From Planctomycetaceae bacterium (GTDB lineage: Bacteria > Planctomycetota > Planctomycetia > Planctomycetales > Planctomycetaceae), in assembly GCA_947476295.1 (NCBI GenBank), contig CANJQC010000009.1, positions 1 through 64,000 on the forward strand: 64,000 nt of DNA. The letters run 5' to 3'. Shown here in pieces: positions 346 to 25,145 of the stretch (the first letter of the stretch is position 1; every line of letters begins with the position of its first letter). The notes under the pieces were generated by a model that had not been told where the DNA came from, ran no database searches, and was given only the letters and a program-made list of their open reading frames with translations. Both the position numbers and the translations under genes were made by a program.

Positions 346-1791
346 ATGACGAATCCGTTTCTCGAAAATATGGCCCGTGTCACGCGCCGACAGCTGTTTG
401 GTACGACATCGAGCGGGATCGGCCTGGCGGCATTGGCATCGATCGCAGGTTCATCATTTGCGAGCGCTGCGGATCGTGGGCTGCCGGGGATGCCGCACAT
501 TCCGGCGAAGGCAAAGCGGGTGGTGGTAATGTGGCAGGGAGGAGGTCCATCACATGTGGATCTGTTCGACGAAAAGCCCGTGATGCGGCAGATGGCGGGC
601 AAAGATATCCCGGATTCTATTCGAGGTACAACGAGGCTTTCTACAATGTCCAGTGGCTACGGAAAGTGGCCGTGTCAGCCTGCGATCAAGCCATTTAGAC
701 GTTACGGCCAGGCCGGGATTTCGTTGAGCGAAATGCTGTCGAATGTGGGCTCCATCGCAGACGATATCTGCGTTGTCCGCAGCATGCACACAGAAGCCGT
801 CAATCACGCTCCCGGAGTCACCTTGTTTATGACCGGGTCCCAGGTTCCTGGTCGGCCCAGCATGGGCGGATGGTTATCGTACGGCCTTGGCAATGACACC
901 GACAACCTTCCGACATTCGTCGTGATGACCTCCAGCGACAAAGCCAGGACCTGTGGCCAGTTGTTCTTTGATTATTACTGGGGCAGCGGTTTCCTTCCGA
1001 GTCGCTTTCAAGGCGTCCGCTTTCGAAATACTGGCGATCTTGTTCCCTACCTGATGAATCCAGCCGGTGTCAGTGCGGAATCGCGCCGCGCGATGCTGGA
1101 TGATCTGGCTGCCATGAATGCGGCTCATTTGGCCGATTACGGTGACCCGGAAATTGATACGCGAATCGCGCAGTACGAGATGGCGTATCGGATGCAGTCG
1201 AGCGTTCCGGACCTCGTCGATTTCTCCGGCGAAACCAAATCGACGCTTGATCGCTATGGCGTGGATGTGCTTGAAAAGGGCACGTACGCGAATAACTGTC
1301 TGATTGCTCGCCGATTACTCGAACGCGGCGTTCGTTTTGTGCAGTTAATGCATGCGGGCTGGGATCAGCACAGTAATCTGTTCACTCAGCTTGAACAGCA
1401 ATGCCTCGATACGGAAGGCCCCTCTGCTGCACTGGTGAAGGATCTGAAAGAACGCGGGATGCTGGACGATACGCTCATCGTGTGGGGCGGTGAATTTGGA
1501 CGCACGCCGTTTGGTCAGGGAGATCCGGAAAATCCCAAAGGCCGCGATCACTTCGGAAAAGCCTACAGCTGGTGGATGGCCGGCGGTGGAATTAAACCGG
1601 GAACGGTCTACGGGGAAACTGACGACTTTGCTTGGAACATCACGTCGAACCCAGTACATGTCCACGACATGCAGGCCACGATGCTGCATCTGTGCGGCAT
1701 CGATCATACACAGCTGACCTACCGCTATCAGGGCCGACAGTATCGGCTGACCGATGTGCATGGTGAAGTTGTGCAAGGCATTCTTGCATAG
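346..1791 (+). CDS. DUF1501 domain protein, Tat-exported
   Basis: This 481-residue protein belongs to the DUF1501 family, a sulfatase/alkaline-phosphatase-fold group very abundant in planctomycetes and of unknown substrate. The N-terminus reads NPFLENMARVTRRQLFG followed by a hydrophobic stretch ending near ASA, a twin-arginine export signal. Family-typical segments follow: VVVMWQGGGPSHVDLFD (about residues 60-76), MHTEAVNHAPG, GWDQHSNL, WGGEFGRTPFGQ and GRDHFGKAYSWWMAGGG. The ATG at 346 fits the family start; a GTG at 331 would add five residues. It probably acts outside the cytoplasmic membrane. The usual DUF1549/DUF1553 partner is not visible upstream. The family call is firm, the function unknown. 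Confidence 0.93.
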   Translation: MTNPFLENMARVTRRQLFGTTSSGIGLAALASIAGSSFASAADRGLPGMPHIPAKAKRVVVMWQGGGPSHVDLFDEKPVMRQMAGKDIPDSIRGTTRLSTMSSGYGKWPCQPAIKPFRRYGQAGISLSEMLSNVGSIADDICVVRSMHTEAVNHAPGVTLFMTGSQVPGRPSMGGWLSYGLGNDTDNLPTFVVMTSSDKARTCGQLFFDYYWGSGFLPSRFQGVRFRNTGDLVPYLMNPAGVSAESRRAMLDDLAAMNAAHLADYGDPEIDTRIAQYEMAYRMQSSVPDLVDFSGETKSTLDRYGVDVLEKGTYANNCLIARRLLERGVRFVQLMHAGWDQHSNLFTQLEQQCLDTEGPSAALVKDLKERGMLDDTLIVWGGEFGRTPFGQGDPENPKGRDHFGKAYSWWMAGGGIKPGTVYGETDDFAWNITSNPVHVHDMQATMLHLCGIDHTQLTYRYQGRQYRLTDVHGEVVQGILA

Positions 1792-1806
1792 ATAACGGTG
1801 ACTCAT

Positions 1807-1834
1807 GCAGGTCAGACATTCATGTCTGACCTGC
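1807..1834. terminator. Perfect hairpin between convergent genes
   Basis: The palindrome GCAGGTCAGACAT / ATGTCTGACCTGC lies 15 bases after the DUF1501 stop and 43 bases before the ddl stop on the other strand, so it sits where a bidirectional terminator would be. There is no T-tract on either side, so intrinsic termination is doubtful. It may instead be a dispersed repeat: its core GACATTCATGTC recurs in the arms at 28168-28279. Confidence 0.5.
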
Positions 1835-1876
1835 CCTCCCACGACATAAATATCCATCCTGCGGAATGCTTGTGGG

Positions 1877-2809
1877 TCATCGGAATCTGGCGACAGATTG
1901 AAGCAAAAGTTGTTCGCAGAGTTCGCCGACACTGATTCCTCGCGCACGGGCGGACATCGGGACGAGGCTGTGGGAGGTCATGCCAGGGATCGTGTTGATT
2001 TCCAGTATCCACACATGGCCATGTGAATCGACACGAAGATCCGTGCGACTGATACCATTCACCTGGCAGGTCTCACATGCGGCCAGGACGATGTCGGTCA
2101 GGTTGGCGGGCAGGTTTTTGGGTGCGACGTCGTAGCGAGTTGCATCGTCGGTGTATTTTGCGGAGTAATCATACCACCGGCTGGCTGGCAGAATCTCGAC
2201 AACCGGAAATGCTTCGCCATTGATGACGGGGACTGTGACTTCGCGGCCTTCAATATATTTTTCGATGAGGAACATATCGCTCCAGCGTGCGGCCTCGGCA
2301 GCGGCGGCGACGATTTCCTGTTCAGAATCGACGATTGTAATTCCTACGCTTGAACCCTGGGCGGCGGGTTTTACGACCTGGGGATAGCCGATTTGAATTG
2401 AAGCTGCGCGAATCAAATTGCTGGGCGCATCGTGTGAAAACGATATTCCAAGGGCAACCGGAAGTCCGGCTTTTGCTAGGATCTCACGAGTGGCAACCTT
2501 GTCAAAGGTCAAAGCCGACGCCTCTGCAGAACTTCCGAGCCACGGAATGCCCAGCCGGTCCAGTTGCCGCTGCAAAGTCCCGTCTTCACCGCCAGTTCCG
2601 TGCAGCATGGGGAAGATCACGTCAGTGGTTCGCGGAATCTCGTGCAGGGCCAGGATTGAGGGATCGAATTGAAGCACTCGATGCCCGCGCTGCCTCAAAG
2701 CCACCGCAACGCAGGCACCGCTTTCCAGACTGACCTCTCGTTCTGCGGAGTCACCCCCGGACAGGACGACGATTCGCAGCGGGTTACATTGAGAAAAAGT
2801 CTGAGACAT
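1877..2809 (-). CDS. ddl: D-alanine--D-alanine ligase
   Basis: This 310-residue ATP-grasp enzyme joins two D-alanines for the peptidoglycan stem peptide in the cytoplasm. Visible motifs are VVLSGGDSAEREVSLESG at residues 13-30, MLHGTGGEDG in the N-terminal domain, PQVVKPAAQGSSVGI (ATP binding), and LEINTIPGMTSHSLVP near the C-terminus, which carries metal and substrate ligands. The length is typical. It lies downstream of murC and murB on the same strand with a 156-base gap to murB, reproducing the murC-murB-ddl end of the classical division/cell-wall cluster. The ATG at 2809 is the first start and fits the family. Confidence 0.96.
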   Translation of the reverse strand: MSQTFSQCNPLRIVVLSGGDSAEREVSLESGACVAVALRQRGHRVLQFDPSILALHEIPRTTDVIFPMLHGTGGEDGTLQRQLDRLGIPWLGSSAEASALTFDKVATREILAKAGLPVALGISFSHDAPSNLIRAASIQIGYPQVVKPAAQGSSVGITIVDSEQEIVAAAAEAARWSDMFLIEKYIEGREVTVPVINGEAFPVVEILPASRWYDYSAKYTDDATRYDVAPKNLPANLTDIVLAACETCQVNGISRTDLRVDSHGHVWILEINTIPGMTSHSLVPMSARARGISVGELCEQLLLQSVARFR

Positions 2810-2965
2810 TTGTGTCTTTCATCTGAAATGTTCAGCTGCCGCGCCAGCAGCGTGAACGCTGGAATGATGTGGCAATGCTGCTGATTTCGATGAACTCGTT
2901 CACGAATCCTGTTGAGTCATGTTCTGCTGCCACGGGCGGAGTGATCGAAGCGCAGTTCGCTCCAA

Positions 2966-3847
2966 TCACCAGACTTTGATTTCCAGTTCCAGATCAACCG
3001 CAAATTTCTCGGCAACGGCCTTTTGAATGCGGCCGATGAGCTGCTTCACATCGTTGCTGGTGGCACCGGATTCCGTGACGATAAAGTTAGCGTGGCGTTC
3101 GCTGATCCGTGCCTTGCCAACGGAGAGTCCTTTTAGTCCGCACTGTTCAATTAACGCTCCGGCGCTAAGTCCACGAGGATTACGAAAAATGCAACCCGCT
3201 GACTGATCGGCCAGCGGCTGTGTAGATCGCTTCAAGATCCAGTTCTTACGCATCCTCTTGGTCAGTTCTTCGGAATCGTCTCGCGTAAGCTCCAACGTCG
3301 CGGACAAAACCAGCAGATCCTGAATGCTGCTGCGACGGTAGGAGAACGACAGCTCGTCACCATGTCTCACTGCAATTTCGTTATCCTGAGTCAGCACTCG
3401 AACGCTTGTGATAAGCTGACCAATGTCACCCGTTCGCCCGCCGCTGTTACCAACAACGGCACCGGCGATCGTGCCAGGAATTCCAACAAGATATTCGATG
3501 CCGCCCAAGCCCGCTCGTACTGCTTCCGCCACAACGTGCGACAGCAATGTTCCACCGCCGGCCGTGAGCGAAGTGCCTTCGATCTTAACTTCACCTAGGA
3601 GCGGTTCGACAACTCGAACGACAACTCCCTGCACGCCCGGTTCTCGCACAAGCAGATTTGATCCGCTTCCGAGGATGTGAATGGGCAATTGTTGGCGGCG
3701 GCAGGTCCTGATGACCTCCAGCAGTTCTGTTTCTGTACGCGGGGTCACAAAGTACTGGGCGGGGCCACCCAGTCGCAGCCATGTGTGATGGCTGAGCGGT
3801 TCGTCACGCTGCAAAATTTCGCTGAAGTCTTCGATAGATTTCGTCAT
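2966..3847 (-). CDS. murB: UDP-N-acetylmuramate dehydrogenase
   Basis: MurB reduces UDP-GlcNAc-enolpyruvate to UDP-MurNAc using NADPH and FAD. The 293-residue protein starts MTKSIEDFSEIL and shows the FAD-binding LGSGSNLLV and GIPGTIAGAVVGNSGG motifs. The late block AGCIFRNP carries Cys where E. coli MurB has its catalytic Ser229. The shape is type II (Gram-positive-like, short). The ATG at 3847 is preferred over an in-frame start at 3886, which adds 13 unconserved residues. Either way the start lies inside the 3' end of murC (44-base overlap with the chosen start), so the two genes are probably translationally coupled. Confidence 0.95.
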   Translation of the reverse strand: MTKSIEDFSEILQRDEPLSHHTWLRLGGPAQYFVTPRTETELLEVIRTCRRQQLPIHILGSGSNLLVREPGVQGVVVRVVEPLLGEVKIEGTSLTAGGGTLLSHVVAEAVRAGLGGIEYLVGIPGTIAGAVVGNSGGRTGDIGQLITSVRVLTQDNEIAVRHGDELSFSYRRSSIQDLLVLSATLELTRDDSEELTKRMRKNWILKRSTQPLADQSAGCIFRNPRGLSAGALIEQCGLKGLSVGKARISERHANFIVTESGATSNDVKQLIGRIQKAVAEKFAVDLELEIKVW

Positions 3848-5294
3848 GAATCTGATGTGTCCTGCCTGCTCCCATTGTGATGACAACGTCGCCTAGTCGC
3901 CCGGAATGGTCTAATCTTCCCAGTACCTGGTCAAGATTCGACATCAGGAAAGCACGGCCTCCCGATTCAGAGATACTTCGGACCAGAGTTCCCGAAACGC
4001 GGCTGCAGTGAGCGTATGAAGCCGTTTCTCGCGCGGGAAGTACGGGAAGGATAAGGCATTCGTCGGCAAGTAAAAGTGCAGAACGAAAATCTTTAAAAAG
4101 TGCAGAAATTCGTGACAACTGATGCGGTTCAAAAACAACAATCAGACGGCGGTTCTGGAAGACAGTGCGTGCGGTAACGAGAGTGGACCTGATTGCGGTG
4201 GGGTGATGAGCGTAGTCGTCGACCCAGTCGATGCCAAACAAGTGCCCGCGATGTTCGAAGCGTCGACGAATTCCGGAAAATGCCCCAATACCGCTAATAG
4301 CTGATTCAACCGATACTCCCATCGAAACGGCGGCCGCAATAGCTGCGACAGCGTTCTGTCGATTGTGAAGTCCGGGCACCTGAAGCGGCACCAGCCCGAC
4401 AGCATGGTTTCTGTTGCGAAGCAGGAACGTCTGCCGCTGACTGCTGGCCGGAATCCCGGGTGGATCTGATTCGCAAGAGACGGCATTCCAGTCCGCGTCC
4501 CTATGCAGCGAAAATGAAATCGTCCGGCGTCCGCAGGTTGCTGCGATCGTTGCGGATCTCTGGCAGTCATGGTTGAAAATCAAAGTGCCATCGGTCGGTA
4601 GTCGCGCCACAAAGTCGTTGAAGGTTTGATCGTAGTCGGCCTGCGACGAAAAGCAATCGAAGTGATCCGGTTCGATTCCGGTGAGCACAACTGTCGATGG
4701 CGACAGGTGCAAAAACGACTGACGGTATTCACAACTTTCGACGACGGCCACCGCGCCTGAACCGAAGACACCTGAGCGACCTTGACTTCTCATCACTCCA
4801 CCAACATACGCCGACGGATCACGGCCTGCCTGTTGCAGGATACACCAGATCATTCCACTGGTTGTCGTTTTTCCGTGTGTCCCTGCCACGCACGCCTGAT
4901 TGTGGGAGACAAGTAACTGGCTGAGGGCCTGCGGAAGTGACATTGGTGTTAAACCAAGTGATCGGCAGCGCTGAAGCAGCGGACAGGACTCCTGTACAGC
5001 CATCGAATAGACGACGTACTCAGGAGTGTCTGCGAAAATCTGTTCCGCGCGGTCCGGATGCAAAAGTCTGAAGGCTAGATTATGGACGACTGCTGGCAGA
5101 TCGCTCTCACAAGCATTCAATTCGTGATCAGTGCCAACAACAGATTCACCAGCGTCAAGCAGCATCTCCGCGAACGCTCGCATCCCGGCACCTAGGACGC
5201 CGACCAGCAGCCATGGTCTTTTGTAATCTGAAGATAAACCATTGAACAACGGGCGATTGTTTTTCTTCAACGTCTCTTTTCTCACGGCAGCCAT
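3804..5294 (-). CDS. murC: UDP-N-acetylmuramate--L-alanine ligase
   Basis: MurC adds L-Ala to UDP-MurNAc. The 496-residue protein (from ATG 5294) has the N-terminal Rossmann glycine motif, here LVGVLGAGM instead of the usual GIGGIGM. The Mur-ligase P-loop GTHGKTTTSGMIW follows, then DDYAHHPTAIRSTL, and near the end GDVVITMGAG. A GTG at 5375 would extend it by 27 residues without family support. It is the first gene of the murC-murB-ddl set. The divergent kinase starts at 5665, so promoters for both probably lie in 5295-5664. Planctomycetes have peptidoglycan, and this set is consistent with that. Confidence 0.95.
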   Translation of the reverse strand: MAAVRKETLKKNNRPLFNGLSSDYKRPWLLVGVLGAGMRAFAEMLLDAGESVVGTDHELNACESDLPAVVHNLAFRLLHPDRAEQIFADTPEYVVYSMAVQESCPLLQRCRSLGLTPMSLPQALSQLLVSHNQACVAGTHGKTTTSGMIWCILQQAGRDPSAYVGGVMRSQGRSGVFGSGAVAVVESCEYRQSFLHLSPSTVVLTGIEPDHFDCFSSQADYDQTFNDFVARLPTDGTLIFNHDCQRSATIAATCGRRTISFSLHRDADWNAVSCESDPPGIPASSQRQTFLLRNRNHAVGLVPLQVPGLHNRQNAVAAIAAAVSMGVSVESAISGIGAFSGIRRRFEHRGHLFGIDWVDDYAHHPTAIRSTLVTARTVFQNRRLIVVFEPHQLSRISALFKDFRSALLLADECLILPVLPARETASYAHCSRVSGTLVRSISESGGRAFLMSNLDQVLGRLDHSGRLGDVVITMGAGRTHQIHDEIYRRLQRNFAA

Positions 5295-5664: not shown

Positions 5665-7380
5665 ATGAAGGTTCCGGTCGCAGCTCAAAACTTTCTGGAA
5701 TTGCTCGAAAAGAGCGAACTGCTCACTGGATCGCAGATTAAGAAGGTGCGCGAAAGGCTAAAGATTCCGGACACGGCAACGGCACGCGAGACTGCAAAAG
5801 CTCTGGTTCAGGGACGTGTACTGACACCGTTCCAGGCCGAACGCCTGCTCGAAGGACGATATCGAGGCTTGGTGATTGACGGCTATCGTATTCGCGAAGT
5901 GCTGGGCTTCGGAGGCATGGGCTGTGTCTTCATTGCCGAACATCAAAACGAAAGTCGCAAGGTCGCGCTCAAGGTATTGTCGTCGGAACATGCTCTGGAT
6001 GCCGGAATGCTGGCCAGAATGAAACTGGAAGCGATTGCGGGGATGCGACTCAATCACCCGAACATTATTCGCACATATCGAATGGATACAACCGGCGCAG
6101 TCCATTTTCTGGTGATGGAACTCTTTCGCGGTATCACCCTGCATGAACTTGTCGCCCTGTACGGAGCCCTCAAGTGGCCAGTGGTGTGTGATATTGCTCT
6201 GCAGGCAGCAGCAGCACTGAAGGCCGCACATGCGCAGGGGATTATCCATCGCGACATCAAGCCGGCAAACTTCCTGATTGACCAGAACGGTGTGACGCGA
6301 ATTCTGGACTTTGGCCTGGCGATGATAAAAGACGTACCGGAAGAAGAATTTTCGCTGTCAATGGTGTTTGGCCACGACTGCCTTGGAACACCTGACTATA
6401 TTGCTCCGGAGCAATCACTGGACAGTCGCCGCGTGGATGCACGAGCGGACATCTACAGCCTTGGCGCGACGTTGTACGTTGCGCTGACCGCGCATGTGCC
6501 GTTTCCTGACAAATCCAACAAGGCAAAGCTCGAAGCGCATCGTTCGAAACGACCAAAGAACGTTTGCCAGCTTCGTCCGGAGATCCCGTCAGAAATCGGG
6601 GCCATCATTGCTAAGATGCTGGAAAAAGATCCTGCGAAGCGGTTTCAGTCGGCTGACGAACTTGCGGATGCAGTCAGGCCGCACGCGCAGCGAACTTCGA
6701 TACAGTTCGATTTTCGTGAATTGGTCACACTGAGGGCAAAACAAGCGAAGGCGAAAGTAGAACAGTCGGGGAAGAAACCGTCCGGACAGAGATCATCCAT
6801 CACATCGACGTCAGGATGGCTCAGGGAAGGCAGTCTTCAGATTGCCGAAAGGACTGACAGCTTCAGTCAGTCGGAAACGCCCGCCATCCGGCAGCCCGAA
6901 CCTCATCGAATGCGAGCAGAACCCGTGCATTCAGTGCCAACGACTTCCATTCGTTCCACAACATTCAGTGGGCCGGTGCCAGTGGGCTGGCGGCTGCAGA
7001 TGCTCGGCACAAGGCGACGGGTTGCACTGGTGAAGGCCAGAACATCGATCGGTTCCGAGCACGGTGCCGACGTGCTATTGCTGCGAGACGGCGGCGTCGA
7101 TAGTCTGCAGTGCTGGCTGGAATACGACGGGCTGCACTGGAAGCTGCATCAGGAATCGAAAACACTCCCGACATACGTCAACGGCACAGTGGAAGCGTTG
7201 TGTACGCTGCGTCATGGCTCAAAAATTACGTTCGGCGGAAAAACGGGCGTAAGACTTGTCAGCCTTCCGCAAATCGCCAAAAACCGAAAACGCCTGATGG
7301 CGTCAATTATCGGACTCATTGTGATCCTGACCGGCGGCGGACTTGCATGGTGGCTGCTGAGTTTATTTCAAGTTTTCTAA
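5665..7380 (+). CDS. Ser/Thr protein kinase with FHA-like region and C-terminal membrane anchor
   Basis: This is a 571-residue Hanks-type kinase. Residues 1-70 form the helical module common in planctomycete kinases (FLELLEKSELL, LTPFQAERLLEGR). The kinase domain spans about 73-340: glycine loop LGFGGMGCVF, VALK lysine near 103, HRDIKPANFL with the catalytic Asp near 197, DFG near 215, and GTPDYIAPEQ. A Ser/Thr-rich linker leads to a region near 445-535 (IGSEHGADVLLL, LPTYVNGT, GSKITFGG) resembling a forkhead-associated phosphopeptide domain. A single hydrophobic segment near 543-566 ends the protein, implying a tail-anchored cytoplasmic kinase. The ATG at 5665 fits related starts; ATG 5602 adds 21 residues. 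Confidence 0.92.
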   Translation: MKVPVAAQNFLELLEKSELLTGSQIKKVRERLKIPDTATARETAKALVQGRVLTPFQAERLLEGRYRGLVIDGYRIREVLGFGGMGCVFIAEHQNESRKVALKVLSSEHALDAGMLARMKLEAIAGMRLNHPNIIRTYRMDTTGAVHFLVMELFRGITLHELVALYGALKWPVVCDIALQAAAALKAAHAQGIIHRDIKPANFLIDQNGVTRILDFGLAMIKDVPEEEFSLSMVFGHDCLGTPDYIAPEQSLDSRRVDARADIYSLGATLYVALTAHVPFPDKSNKAKLEAHRSKRPKNVCQLRPEIPSEIGAIIAKMLEKDPAKRFQSADELADAVRPHAQRTSIQFDFRELVTLRAKQAKAKVEQSGKKPSGQRSSITSTSGWLREGSLQIAERTDSFSQSETPAIRQPEPHRMRAEPVHSVPTTSIRSTTFSGPVPVGWRLQMLGTRRRVALVKARTSIGSEHGADVLLLRDGGVDSLQCWLEYDGLHWKLHQESKTLPTYVNGTVEALCTLRHGSKITFGGKTGVRLVSLPQIAKNRKRLMASIIGLIVILTGGGLAWWLLSLFQVF

Positions 7381-19711: not shown

Positions 19712-22700
19712 CTACTCCACGACCATCACACCGTTCATCACCATCCAATGACCAGGGAAAGTGCAGAGAAACGGATAACGGCCCGGTTCAGTTGGAGCGG
19801 TATAGTAGATCGTTTGTTTTTCGCCGGGTGAAACAATGTCGGTGTGAGCGAGTACGTTGTCGGATTCCGGGATATACTGGCGGGCGAAGGCTTCCGGGTT
19901 CGCTATGAGTTGATTGCCGAGTTCACCAACGCTCTGTAATGAACCGGGTTGCACGAGAACCCAATTGTGAGGGACGACGTCGGGGTTGGAAAGTGTGAAG
20001 GCGATCGGCTCGTTAGCTTTGACAGTGAATTCTTTGGTGGCATAAGAAAGATTTTTTCCGGTCTCGATTTCGATTTCACGCGATCCCTTAATTTTCCGTC
20101 GCCACGGATTTGGGATTTGAACAGCGTTCAGTGCAAGATCGGTGAGGAGCGGATGCGCGGCGATGATTTTCTCACTCGGTTCGTAGCCAGAAAATTTTTG
20201 GAACGGTCGATCAAGTTTGTGAACGGTGACGAATAAATCGTGTCCCGTGCCTGCTGGCGAACATGTGAGTGAGTCCTCGCCGTTGACATGCAGTCGCAGG
20301 TGCAGTTGACTGACAGGTTGCAGTTCCGGGATCTCGAGAAATACCGAACAGCCGTCCGAAAGCATATGAGCCGAGGTGATCGCCAGTGTATCGTGACCGG
20401 GGATCCCGGGATGCGTCGTGGAATACTCAGGCGAACCGTACGCACCGCTGTAGCGATAGTTCCAGCACTGAGCGAACTGGCGATGTGCGTCCGCTGCAAC
20501 CGACTTGTCGATCCGCTCTGCAAAGGTCACACGAATTCCGTTTTCATACGTGTGGAATCCAACCGGGATCTGAACCGCATCGCCTGTATAGCGCACTCGC
20601 TGAAAGCAGCCGTCGTCGGGGGTGTAAGAACCCCAGCCTGCCATGCCGGACACGTACAACTGTCCGTCTGTCGGATTAAATCGTCCCCGATGTGTACCGG
20701 ATAGAAAATCACCTGCCATTGGCACAACGGCACCCTGAAGCTGGTCACCGACTTCGTCTTTCAGGACAACAGACCACGTTCCCGCGCCGAACGAAAAGTG
20801 CAGTAACTGTCCGTTGAGCGGCCCGAACGCATCACTTTTTACGTAAACCTGTCCGCCGCTGGAATTGTCGAGTCCTCGTGGCAGATACGCCAGCGGCAGT
20901 TCCGGTGGCTTGCCCTCTTTCGGGCCACGGTAACCGAAATGCAATGGATTAGCCGAAGATCGAGTATTGGCATATGGGACGGCATCCACCATTGATGCAG
21001 GAGTCCATTCGCCTTCGGAAACGGGTAGCGTCACTGTTCCGTCGGGCAGAATGCCAAGTCCGTCTGGATTGCGAAATCCAGTGGCAATCACTTCGGCAGT
21101 TTGACCATCGGGCGAAATACGAATCAAACCCTGATTGCCGGAGGCTGTGTAAAAGTTACCGTTCTGGTCGCGTTGCAGACCACAAATAAAATCATGTCCG
21201 GCAGGGGATGTCACGAAGGCGTTGCTGAAACATTCGTAGAAGTCGGCTTCACCGTCATCATTGAGATCAGTGAGACGAGTCAACTGGTCCCGGCATTGCA
21301 CGTAGATCTTTCCATCTGCGACAACCAGACCGAGAGCATGATGGAGCCCTGATGCAAATCGCCGCCAGTAAGCTTTACCCGGCTTGTCGGCACCAGAATC
21401 TAAACCGGTGACGCGCCACACATCGCCCTGAATGGTGCAGACCAACGCGCTGCCGTCGGGCAGGAAGTCATGATCGCCGCAAAACAGTGGTGCCTTCCAC
21501 GCATTGTCGTAGGGCAATTCAATCGTATCGATCGCATACGGACGACCATCGCCGGGAATGATTTTTGTTTGCAGCACTTGAGGCCACTGAGCTGGCCCTC
21601 CTGCTGCTAGGGCTCGCAGCGGATGCTGGTCCGCCGGTGCGGCATCATTGACGAACTTGCCATCGCTTGCCCACGGTGAGTCGAGATATTCGACATCGCC
21701 GATTCGATACGCGAACACGACTCGATTGCCGTGGCGATAGAATCCGTGGTATTTGAACGGTTTCCCAGGAGGATTCTGTTTGGGAATTGGCACCATCTGC
21801 CCGACCATCCGTACGCCGCTGACAAATCCGTGACGAACAGAATCAAAGTTAACAAAACCGCCAGACCAAACAGCGTCAAATGTCAGCGTGTCGGGATTGA
21901 AACAGGCTGATAATTCACCGCGATCGCCAAGTTTAACGCAAACGCCGCGTGCCACGGTGATGCCATCTGCGTGAAAGACTCCTGACTGCACGGAACCGAG
22001 CTGTGCCTCGTTCCATCGCCCATCGGCCCAGACGGCTTCGTTTTGATTACCCCAGTGCCCTTGCTTCCCGCCGTCAAGTCCCGGAAATTGAGCCAGCAGC
22101 ATCGGGATGTGATGCTGCTGTCGAAAGAAATCTGCTTGCTTGGTGTAGAAATCATACAAGCGATCGCGATTCACAGGATTGTTTGCGTTTAACCAGCGAC
22201 TCGGTTCAAGTGGTTCTTTTGTGAAAGGAAACTCAGCAGGGCCATGTATTTGACTATGAGCGATAGCGTCCAAAAACTCGACGGAAAGTGGTTCGCCGTC
22301 GCGTCCAAGTTCGCTTAGGAATCGAATCAGATCCAACTGTTGTCGCCGCGACATAGCCGCAGTAAGTCCGGCAGGCATCACGGTGCTGGCCGCAATTTCC
22401 TCTTCGACTTCCGCACGCATGATCGTTGTCAGCTTGCTGGTGGCAGGATCGCGCAGAGTGACCTGATTCTCGTCCGAACTGTGTTTGTAGCCGGTAAAGA
22501 CCCGGCCTTTTGCGGTTAGAATTTGCCATGTCACGAATTCCGGTTTGACATCTCGCTTTGGCCATAGCACGGATTCAATGATGTGATCCAGCTTTCGATC
22601 TTTTGCAACAGCGGACAAATCGGGACCAACCGTACCTCCCTGCGGTCCGATTTTGTGGCACGAAACACAGGCCACCTTTGCGTCGGTGAAGACTGAGACC

Positions 22701-23674
22701 CCACGAATTGCATCGCCATGTTCGCCTGCTTCTGCGACCAGTCGCGCGACAAGGTCAGCATCGTAAGGCATTTCCGGCATCACTCGACTATCCGCAACGG
22801 GCTTCGGGCCTCCACTGCCGGGTTTTTCGATTTCCTTGCGAATCCAATCTAACCCGCCACGGTTCTCCAGCAATGATTCGCGGGCATCCAGTTGTTCGCG
22901 ATGATCAAGAATCCCGATCGGCCCATCGTAACCACTTTCGACGACCGTGCGAATCATGTCCAGTTCATGGGCCCCTTTGCCAATGCCCAGAATCTTCGGC
23001 TGTTCCAGCTCATTCATTCCGTTGAGATTCAGACAGTGCAGATATGGCTTCATCAACGCAAACGATACAGCCCAGTCCGCGATATGCCCGTGGCCGTGAT
23101 GGAAGTTGTATACGATGCCAACCTGATCCTGTCCGAGTTCATGCAGGCGTTTACATACGGCTACCAGATTTTGCGGTTCACCGCCCCAGCCGCCGTGGTT
23201 GTAAAGCCCGAGTTTGCATCCCATTGTCTTTGTACGCTTTGCAAGTGGCAACATCTGCTGAGCAGCCGCCTCCACTTTCGTATCCTCCGCTGTTCCGCCG
23301 GGATCGCTCAGCGTCTGCCAGATCTGCGGATGAAGGTCGTATTTTTCGAACAGTTTAAATGCTTCTTCGTGAACACTCCAGAACGCGAAATATTCGATGC
23401 CATTCTTTTTGTATTCCTGAATCTCCTGTTCAAACGTAGGCACGTGTTCTTCGCGCCAGTCGTATGCACACCGCATGATGCCCAACTCTTTGAGCATAAT
23501 CGCCCGCTCCGCTGGTCCGCGTTTCGCTGCATCAAAAGGAACAATACACCATGCGACTTGGTTTTCACGACGAAGTACGGCAGCGTCATCGATCGCCGAC
23601 ACCGACGTTCCTGTACACGAATAAAACGAGGCCACCAGAATTGCGGCAAGGGAGAGTGAAGTTGATTTGTTCAT
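19712..23674 (-). CDS. Giant exported fusion: TIM barrel + cytochrome c + propeller + azurin-like domain
   Basis: This 1320-residue exported protein has four recognisable modules. Residues 1-27 are a signal sequence with a lipobox-like ending (SFYSC). Residues 30-295 look like a xylose-isomerase/sugar-epimerase TIM barrel (EYFAFWSVHEEAFKLFEKYDL, GLYNHGGWGGEP). A cytochrome c module follows with CVSCH at 336-340. Residues about 480-1050 resemble the propeller/glucose-dehydrogenase region of PVC heme proteins (LHHALGLVVADGKIYV, FRNPDGLGILPDG). The C-terminus is a cupredoxin: His1236 (VVPHNWV) and Cys1304-x4-His1309-x3-Met1313 (CTFPGHWMVM), the azurin ligand pattern. It probably works in the periplasm on sugar-related substrates. 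The combination is inferred; the substrate is unknown. Confidence 0.88.
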   Translation of the reverse strand: MNKSTSLSLAAILVASFYSCTGTSVSAIDDAAVLRRENQVAWCIVPFDAAKRGPAERAIMLKELGIMRCAYDWREEHVPTFEQEIQEYKKNGIEYFAFWSVHEEAFKLFEKYDLHPQIWQTLSDPGGTAEDTKVEAAAQQMLPLAKRTKTMGCKLGLYNHGGWGGEPQNLVAVCKRLHELGQDQVGIVYNFHHGHGHIADWAVSFALMKPYLHCLNLNGMNELEQPKILGIGKGAHELDMIRTVVESGYDGPIGILDHREQLDARESLLENRGGLDWIRKEIEKPGSGGPKPVADSRVMPEMPYDADLVARLVAEAGEHGDAIRGVSVFTDAKVACVSCHKIGPQGGTVGPDLSAVAKDRKLDHIIESVLWPKRDVKPEFVTWQILTAKGRVFTGYKHSSDENQVTLRDPATSKLTTIMRAEVEEEIAASTVMPAGLTAAMSRRQQLDLIRFLSELGRDGEPLSVEFLDAIAHSQIHGPAEFPFTKEPLEPSRWLNANNPVNRDRLYDFYTKQADFFRQQHHIPMLLAQFPGLDGGKQGHWGNQNEAVWADGRWNEAQLGSVQSGVFHADGITVARGVCVKLGDRGELSACFNPDTLTFDAVWSGGFVNFDSVRHGFVSGVRMVGQMVPIPKQNPPGKPFKYHGFYRHGNRVVFAYRIGDVEYLDSPWASDGKFVNDAAPADQHPLRALAAGGPAQWPQVLQTKIIPGDGRPYAIDTIELPYDNAWKAPLFCGDHDFLPDGSALVCTIQGDVWRVTGLDSGADKPGKAYWRRFASGLHHALGLVVADGKIYVQCRDQLTRLTDLNDDGEADFYECFSNAFVTSPAGHDFICGLQRDQNGNFYTASGNQGLIRISPDGQTAEVIATGFRNPDGLGILPDGTVTLPVSEGEWTPASMVDAVPYANTRSSANPLHFGYRGPKEGKPPELPLAYLPRGLDNSSGGQVYVKSDAFGPLNGQLLHFSFGAGTWSVVLKDEVGDQLQGAVVPMAGDFLSGTHRGRFNPTDGQLYVSGMAGWGSYTPDDGCFQRVRYTGDAVQIPVGFHTYENGIRVTFAERIDKSVAADAHRQFAQCWNYRYSGAYGSPEYSTTHPGIPGHDTLAITSAHMLSDGCSVFLEIPELQPVSQLHLRLHVNGEDSLTCSPAGTGHDLFVTVHKLDRPFQKFSGYEPSEKIIAAHPLLTDLALNAVQIPNPWRRKIKGSREIEIETGKNLSYATKEFTVKANEPIAFTLSNPDVVPHNWVLVQPGSLQSVGELGNQLIANPEAFARQYIPESDNVLAHTDIVSPGEKQTIYYTAPTEPGRYPFLCTFPGHWMVMNGVMVVE

Positions 23675-23852: not shown

Positions 23853-25145
23853 ATGCGATCCGCCACTGATACAACATTGATCCACAACGGACAGGTCATT
23901 GATGGAACAGGAGTACCTGCCATCCCCGATGCCTGCGTGTTGATTGAATCAGGTGTGATCCGTTACGTCGGGCCTCTGGAAAATGCGCCGCAGGTTCCGG
24001 AGACTGCAATGCGAGTGGATGCGAACGGCGGGACGATCATGCCGGGGTTAGTGGAAGCTCATTTTCATCCCACCTATTTCAACGTTGCGGCGCTGGAAGA
24101 TCTGGATATCAGATACCCCGTCGAATATGTCACGCTTCTCGCAGCCTGCAATGCACGATTGGCGCTGGAATGCGGTTACACATCGGCCCGCAGTGGCGGC
24201 AGTCTGTTTAACATTGACGTGTGGCTGAAGAAGGCGATCGAAAGTGACCTAGTGATCGGCCCTCGCCTGGCGTCGAGTGGACGTGAGATCTGCGGTGCCG
24301 GCGGGTTGATGGACTGGAATCCTGAATTCCGCAAGATCGGAATGGAAGGACTAATTCTGCTCGTCAACGGTCCCGATGAAGCACGCAAGGCCGTTCGGAA
24401 ACTGGTCAAAGACGGCGTCGAATGGGTGAAGACATATCCGACCGGCGACGCAGCAGCAGCCGACCATAACGACCATCACACTCTGTGCATGACGTTTGAA
24501 GAAATGCACGCCGTCGTTCAGACAGCGCACAATCATGGAATGAAAGTCACCGGCCATTGCCGCGCCACGGCTGGAATCAAGAATGCGCTGCTGGCTGGTT
24601 ATGACGCGATCGAGCACGGGACATTCATCGATGATGAAACACTGGAATTGCTGCTCAAACGAAATGTTCCCGTGGTGCCCGCGCTGTATTTCGAACTAAT
24701 GAGTATCGAACGCGGGCCCGAATTCGGAATGCCACAAGCCGTGATTGACGGGCACCAGGAAACACTGGACGGCGGTGCCGAAAGTGCCCGACGAATTCTG
24801 GCGGCAGGCGGGCGACTGGGAATGGGCGGTGACTATGGATTCGCGTGGAATCCCCACGGCGACTATGCCAAAGAGCTGTCATTCTTCGTGAACTACGTCG
24901 GCTTGAAACCACTGGAAGTCATCAAATGTGCGACTCAGACTGGCGCGGAGATTCTTGGCCGCGATGATGAACTGGGAACGCTGACTGCGGGAAAACTCGG
25001 TGACGTACTGGTCGTTGACGGCGATGTCGTGGCTGACATCTCGATACTGCATGACCGAAAGCGACTCATCGCCGTCATGCAGTCCGGCATCATCAAAAGC
25101 CGCTGCGGCGTGAGCTGTTTGAGCGGCGACGCAGTGGTGAGTTAG
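23853..25145 (+). CDS. Metal-dependent amidohydrolase family protein
   Basis: This 430-residue member of the amidohydrolase superfamily belongs to the imidazolonepropionase/prolidase-like branch. Visible metal and catalytic features are GLVEAHFHPT (HxH), VEWVKTYPTG (candidate carboxylated Lys), GMKVTGHCRA, YDAIEHGTFID, and MGGDYGFAWNPHG with the late Asp. The ends carry the usual composite beta-sandwich (LIHNGQVIDGTGVPAIPDA at the start; LTAGKLGDVLVVDGD at the end). No signal peptide is seen, so it is cytoplasmic. The substrate cannot be inferred. It is divergent from the large fusion gene and may share a regulatory gap with it. Confidence 0.88.
   Translation: MRSATDTTLIHNGQVIDGTGVPAIPDACVLIESGVIRYVGPLENAPQVPETAMRVDANGGTIMPGLVEAHFHPTYFNVAALEDLDIRYPVEYVTLLAACNARLALECGYTSARSGGSLFNIDVWLKKAIESDLVIGPRLASSGREICGAGGLMDWNPEFRKIGMEGLILLVNGPDEARKAVRKLVKDGVEWVKTYPTGDAAAADHNDHHTLCMTFEEMHAVVQTAHNHGMKVTGHCRATAGIKNALLAGYDAIEHGTFIDDETLELLLKRNVPVVPALYFELMSIERGPEFGMPQAVIDGHQETLDGGAESARRILAAGGRLGMGGDYGFAWNPHGDYAKELSFFVNYVGLKPLEVIKCATQTGAEILGRDDELGTLTAGKLGDVLVVDGDVVADISILHDRKRLIAVMQSGIIKSRCGVSCLSGDAVVS

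Follow-up and report, generated by a model that had tools for sequence, protein, structure and literature searches.

A predicted exported fusion of TIM barrel, cytochrome c, six-bladed propeller and cupredoxin modules in a Planctomycetaceae bacterium

What could a bacterium do with a single exported polypeptide that carries an isomerase-like barrel, a heme c, a dehydrogenase-like propeller and a blue copper domain? The question is raised by a 1320-amino acid open reading frame on contig CANJQC010000009.1 of a Planctomycetaceae bacterium (assembly GCA_947476295.1), of which positions 1 to 64,000, here called the window, were analysed. An earlier note, made from the sequence alone, had proposed that this chain may pass electrons internally from the propeller to heme and copper while the barrel isomerises or binds the sugar. 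Our answer, to which we assign a probability of roughly 0.45 on the basis of sequence comparison and structure models, is that the fusion may be an exported multidomain oxidoreductase with copper as the constant exit. The central pocket of the propeller would be the place where a carbohydrate-like substrate is oxidised, with the electrons leaving via the cupredoxin; heme c, where present (in the Planctomycetota), would act as a side store or a relay to outside acceptors. The TIM barrel, together with a LamG domain in those relatives that have one, would bind or modify carbohydrate through a non-canonical site, and pyrroloquinoline quinone (PQQ), if it is the propeller cofactor, would be scavenged. 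The features of the gene are as follows.

19712..23674, minus strand: whole open reading frame, 1320 amino acids, ATG start, stop included, homologues along its entire length
23594..23674, minus strand: probable Sec signal peptide, residues 1-27, cleavage near SVSA/IDD (sequence read by eye)
22805..23578, minus strand: xylose-isomerase-like TIM barrel, residues 33-290 (fold match, PF01261 in homologues, conservation)
22304..22717, minus strand: cytochrome c domain TIGR02603, residues 320-457, heme ligands H340 and M433
22655..22669, minus strand: CVSCH heme attachment site, residues 336-340 (C336/C339/H340)
21680..21907, minus strand: DUF6797 (PF20601), residues 590-665, 7.7e-15, in 37 of the 39 rows of homologue alignment A1
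20579..21547, minus strand: six-bladed propeller, soluble glucose dehydrogenase (sGDH)/NHL type, residues 710-1032
21194..21196, minus strand: His827, equivalent of the sGDH/Asd catalytic His (hhalign to E. coli Asd)
21068..21073, minus strand: Arg868-Asn869, equivalents of sGDH Arg228-Asn229 (hhalign to E. coli Asd)
20180..20569, minus strand: beta domain between propeller and cupredoxin, residues 1036-1165 (model secondary structure; conserved in the alignment)
19715..20080, minus strand: cupredoxin, auracyanin/azurin type, residues 1199-1320, ligands H1236, C1304, H1309 and M1313

The reading frame, the CVSCH motif and the four copper-ligand residues all lie where the earlier note had put them, and the fusion protein is probably exported, as judged from its N-terminus. 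AlphaFold2, run on alignments of the window protein with its homologues, gave two overlapping models, one of residues 300-1320 (mean predicted local distance difference test score, pLDDT, 91.4; predicted template modelling score, pTM, 0.85) and one of residues 28-1199 (pLDDT 89.5, pTM 0.71). Domain-library matches, these models and fold matches agree on the module identities and order that had been proposed, including the TIM barrel and the cupredoxin at the two ends, both of which are predicted with high confidence. They also extend the description with DUF6797, the beta domain ahead of the cupredoxin and, in the closest relatives, a fifth module, LamG. From N- to C-terminus the window protein thus reads xylose-isomerase-like TIM barrel, TIGR02603 cytochrome c, DUF6797, six-bladed sGDH-like propeller, beta domain and azurin/auracyanin cupredoxin.

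A genome scan returned 208 relatives. The 80 loci retained, whose titles are Planctomycetota and Verrucomicrobiota plus a few others, were picked by sequence patterns of the window protein, and rarer layouts may escape. One of the homologues, L066, is from Rhodopirellula baltica, a host that can be cultured. Full-length identity to the window protein is 45-84% in the 39-row alignment A1, and 94 of the 120 genomes of the window's family contain a match at E <= 1e-80, many of them to the propeller or the TIM barrel only. As far as sequences can tell, the family consists of widespread, conserved and predicted exported redox fusions; its novelty is in the combination of modules and in the barrel site, the single modules being of known kinds. 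The open-licence literature yielded no paper on DUF6797, the fusion protein or its domain order. Secreted heme-propeller proteins number in the dozens in PVC (Planctomycetes-Verrucomicrobia-Chlamydiae) bacteria, and in the window genome (G000) the query matches 25 places on many contigs, in frames of about 390-2000 amino acids and mostly via the TIGR02603-type heme domain; apart from the fusion itself, these are a large set of further, putatively secreted heme proteins.

Heme, copper and propeller sites

The cytochrome c domain passes the curated TIGR02603 cut-off with a match over residues 320-454 (1.7e-22; 79.9 bits against 68.15). Both heme ligands, H340 and M433, are kept in all 62 rows that have a CxxCH motif, the methionine as part of a Met-Pro pair at 433-434 (62/62). 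M433 aligns on Met292, the distal ligand of Kustd1711 (7zs0), a structure to which Foldseek also matched the heme domain and in which, with calcium, the heme potentials are close to +350 mV (PMC11791136). The cupredoxin passes the Copper-bind cut-off over residues 1201-1320 (PF00127, 1.3e-11; 45.2 bits against 21.2) and matches auracyanin at 5.7e-15, and its model superposes on auracyanin A (2aan) with Z 19.2 and a root-mean-square deviation (rmsd) of 1.4. The type 1 copper ligands H1236/C1304/H1309/M1313 read HCHM in each of the 73 rows whose sequence is complete at this point; the remainder are truncated or, once (L061), frame-broken. The azurin equivalog TIGR02695 is not reached (51.2 bits against 105.1).

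For the propeller, only weak domain-library matches were obtained, under the cut-off for DUF7133 and, for TIGR02604, at 31.3 bits against 122.2. Its model matches 2ism (template modelling score, TM, 0.67; Z 18.7) and 3a9g (Z 18.6), and H827, R868 and N869 fall on the catalytic His, Arg and Asn of E. coli Asd in a local hhalign alignment of 50% probability that covers the N-terminal part only. These three residues are invariant in 54/54 rows, as are Arg933, Asp936, Asn937 and Gln942, down to about 50% identity; the same catalytic positions are in use in TrAA12 (PMC6881810) and CcPDH (PMC6881789). The dehydrogenase-like propeller of the earlier note is therefore borne out as a sugar-dehydrogenase-type fold with invariant catalytic positions. 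With His827, Arg868 and Asn869 on the positions of the quinoprotein catalytic trio, it is plausible from the sequence that electrons flow from the propeller to copper.

Several observations weigh against an oxidising propeller. NHL and designed Pizza propellers match the propeller model as well as sGDH does, and the domain may do no more than provide a scaffold. Conservation of the second arginine pair in the PQQ pocket is incomplete (R996 in 45/54 rows, R998 in 47/54; its sGDH counterpart was aligned by eye). The PQQ synthesis gene pqqC was not detected in the window genome and was detected in only 1 of the 120 family genomes, remaining undetected in 119; the control set for this search held no PQQ producer, but one relative scored over the cut-off. 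In that lone pqqC-positive genome the sole listed query match is a propeller segment. The pqqE search of the window genome gave radical-SAM matches only, all under the cut-off. PQQ synthesis in the host was accordingly rejected, and since pqqC is undetected in the window genome and in 119/120 family genomes, PQQ use by the propeller is doubtful.

A rival view is that the propeller is a non-catalytic scaffold and the protein an extracellular electron-transfer or sugar-binding hub, in which the cupredoxin, with the heme where there is one, would trade electrons with further enzymes secreted by the cell, TIM barrel and LamG serving only to bind carbohydrate. The equal match of NHL and designed propellers and the undetected PQQ synthesis gene both fit it, but the invariance of seven propeller residues (the catalytic trio and Arg933, Asp936, Asn937 and Gln942) goes beyond the needs of a scaffold, and we place this view somewhat on the unlikely side. 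A PQQ-dependent sugar dehydrogenase proper, that is, an sGDH/Asd/AA12-like quinohemoprotein with a copper exit added, has the six-bladed fold and the catalytic trio behind it, and the fungal fusion of a cytochrome with a PQQ propeller as precedent (PMC6881789). With no pqqC detected in the host, such an enzyme would need a scavenged cofactor, as in E. coli. The undetected pqqC, the partial conservation of the carboxylate-binding arginines and the lack of the GSDH family among the Pfam matches of the window protein make it clearly unlikely. The top Foldseek rows also included nitrous oxide reductase, which was rejected as a relative (TM 0.13-0.29, rmsd > 22 A), only the order of propeller and cupredoxin being common to both.

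Modules gained and lost around the core

A FastTree tree was calculated from the core (residues 480-1320) of 68 rows. Their layouts are TIM-heme (18 rows), TIM-LamG-heme (18), heme without TIM (16) and TIM-LamG without heme (12), with 3 further rows in which a frame change divides the chain, and a single core-only row. Heme changes once on this tree, LamG 7 times and TIM 11 times, while propeller and copper are never lost. Taken together, the architecture labels can be explained by 17 changes, compared with 39.2 in shuffles. They follow the tree, and the modules of the homologues are not split at random; a random split is what the earlier note had named as damaging to its proposal. The invariant core is DUF6797-propeller-cupredoxin, to which TIM, LamG and heme have been added or from which they have been lost. 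That LamG and TIM come and go like binding modules is a further point for the scaffold view.

The single heme change separates a clade that lacks heme but retains propeller and copper; its members are 11 rows with titles of Verrucomicrobiota or subgroups of that phylum, one planctomycete (L065) and the core-only L060 (titled Chthoniobacter). The heme and copper sites of the earlier note are upheld by ligands that are intact and strictly conserved, but the heme-less clade means that heme is no obligatory relay. Because heme changes once on the core tree and propeller and copper never leave, copper would be the constant exit in the oxidoreductase that we favour.

All four modules that had been described are present in the window protein, but the set is not fixed in the family, given the repeated gains and losses of LamG and TIM. 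Laminin_G_3 is found in 17 rows of A1. The same insert was tried as a 3-keto-disaccharide hydrolase (DUF1080), which was rejected on its match to Laminin_G_3. On the tree the window protein groups with L001-L003, which carry LamG between TIM and heme, and the junction can be placed precisely:

22790..22795, minus strand: LamG site, residues 294/295, at which the LamG of about 190 amino acids of L001-L003 is absent (junction alignment)

In this alignment the window copy lacks LamG alone, in frame, between residues 294 and 295, and LamG has apparently been lost from it. Since the window protein groups with LamG carriers and is without just this domain, in frame, its four-module set probably arose from an ancestor with five modules.

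One homologue, at 5503-9948 of L011, has a longer N-terminus. A ThuA domain (PF06283) was found in 1 of the 39 scanned rows, which from sequence and length we take to be L011.

Barrel pocket and frame-split relatives

The Pfam scan of the window protein gave no match over the barrel segment, and 26 of the 39 A1 rows have PF01261. The barrel model matches UlaE (3cqi; Z 20.1, rmsd 3.7, 242 residues aligned) and 4ovx from Planctomyces limnophilus (Z 19.6). In alignments to 3wqo and 4ovx, and to UlaE for the last ligand only, the four metal-ligand positions of the fold are occupied by Tyr158, Asn190, Asn216 or Asn218, and Leu256, in place of what we take to be Glu/Asp/His/Glu in these reference structures. 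All four ligands of the barrel thus appear replaced, which makes ordinary metal-dependent isomerisation unlikely; of the suggestion that the barrel isomerises or binds sugar, the isomerase fold supports the general idea, but the isomerising part is weakened. We checked 21 pocket positions (W42, C43, D48, R52, Y71, D72, R74, H77, W99, W119, Y158, N159, H160, W163, N190, H192, H193, H195, N216, N218 and H258) in 51 TIM rows. They are invariant save one X in one row, with 20/21 in every row. The pocket is under strong constraint, and the barrel is therefore not decaying; its site is different.

The same signature motifs recur in standalone, exported-looking barrels in 14 checked loci, one of which is without the first motif. 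Such standalone barrels with the same pocket motifs are seen in L166-L180, with no redox core gene adjoining within the fetched flanks. In L079 a second, divergent TIM-barrel frame (3-935, 38% identity) lies directly in front of a full fusion gene (939-4895).

An invariant pocket would also suit a barrel that is itself the main enzyme, performing a 3-keto-glycoside lyase or isomerase-like step, with electrons for the paired oxidation fed in or drawn off by the redox part. Xylose-isomerase-like barrels of such a kind cleave 3-keto-glycosides (PMC10628242). Fused rows keep the pocket residues without change, the motifs return in standalone copies, and His160 stands two residues past a lost ligand position, as His134 does past His132 in AtOGE. 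Yet the Mn ligands that this chemistry needs appear replaced (Y158, N190, N216/N218, L256) and 16/68 tree rows have the redox chain without a barrel, which leaves this proposal only a slight chance.

In three loci a -1 frame change separates the barrel from the heme-to-copper part, with a conserved A9 run at each junction:

L022 5938-9842, L025 5935-9863 and L033 5910-9614: frame-split loci, junctions near 6790-6815

Matched by coordinates and frame lengths, these are the three sampled species of one genus, g4, and their nucleotide identity to one another is 74-87%. The downstream frame is open, with differences mostly at third positions (L022/L033: 142, 79, 501), and is under purifying selection; it has no ATG, GTG or TTG ahead of its CxxCH. 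Runs of A or T of at least nine occur about 9 times per Mb of locus DNA, and in many bacteria transcriptional slippage begins to matter at a run of A9 (PMC1088944). Judged from the sequence, the junction is most likely a site of programmed slippage or -1 frameshifting that would yield a free barrel as well as the full chain, and the mechanism may be a -1 ribosomal shift on A_AAA_AAC or an added A in the transcript. Translation may instead begin at a CTG inside the second frame, but its product would be without a signal peptide.

A more far-reaching proposal, which we hold to be unlikely, is a new extracellular oxidoreductase in which a PQQ-independent propeller feeds a built-in blue copper, heme c being optional, the isomerase metal site of the TIM barrel has been rebuilt as a new His-rich catalytic pocket, and one genus couples barrel and redox chain by programmed slippage at A9, so that a single gene yields both the free barrel and the full fusion.

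Neighbouring genes and comparison with known systems

The fusion gene has a divergent neighbour:

23853..25145, plus strand: amidohydrolase, prolidase/carboxypeptidase type

It resembles arginine carboxypeptidases and prolidases, is 66-91% identical to genes adjoining homologues in L002, L062, L067, L068 and L075, and is 61% identical to a 113-amino acid fragment in L008. Such genes adjoin homologues in both Planctomycetota and Verrucomicrobiota, upstream on the same strand in L067, L068 and L075. The amidohydrolase is present in only 63/120 family genomes and, by reading of the matches, often on another contig than the fusion; a strict partnership was rejected for this reason, a loose association being the most that these counts allow. 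Two other families recur near homologues, at 14 and 13 loci, and by eye resemble PSCyt1/DUF1549-DUF1553 and DUF1501 proteins (flanks of L007, L013, L014, L018, L030, L039, L059, L061, L074 and L078). This recurrence may be chance, because both kinds of protein are common in planctomycetes.

The family offers three testable redox elements within a single chain, and the natural variants without heme, TIM or LamG form a ready-made deletion series. If the preferred reading of sugar oxidation with electrons handed to copper is true, DUF6797 and this propeller branch would have their first assigned function.

Among known systems, Kustd1711, a diheme cytochrome of an anammox bacterium, has the same type of heme domain with the distal Met aligned, but it consists of two such domains and nothing else, whereas the window protein is multidomain. 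Auracyanin A and B and azurin share the fold and all four copper ligands of the window cupredoxin, which differs from them in being the C-terminal domain of a large chain and in scoring far under the TIGR02695 azurin cut-off. The xylose-isomerase-like sugar epimerases (UlaE, D-tagatose 3-epimerase, 4ovx) have the same TIM barrel fold, with Z about 20; unlike them, the window barrel has apparently replaced metal ligands and a new invariant His-rich pocket.

The sGDH and aldose sugar dehydrogenases (2ism, 3a9g, E. coli Asd) and the AA12 pyranose dehydrogenases agree with the window protein in the six blades and the positions of the catalytic His, Arg and Asn. The window protein is very distant from them in sequence, keeps the carboxylate-binding arginines only in part, comes from a host with no detected PQQ synthesis gene, and has heme c and copper fused to it. 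The PVC-type heme-binding CxxCH proteins (TIGR02603 heme; TIGR02604/DUF7133 propeller) are from the same phyla and have a related propeller and the heme domain that is over cut-off here; in the window protein, however, the heme is ahead of the propeller, the chain has DUF6797, cupredoxin and TIM in addition, and the propeller is under the TIGR02604 and DUF7133 cut-offs. In Coprinopsis cinerea CcPDH (AA8-AA12-CBM1), a single secreted polypeptide unites a cytochrome b with a sugar-oxidising PQQ propeller and a carbohydrate-binding module (PMC6881789). It differs in its unrelated cytochrome type (heme b) and in being without a copper domain or a TIM barrel, and by analogy this fungal enzyme may serve as a working parallel for the proposed oxidoreductase.

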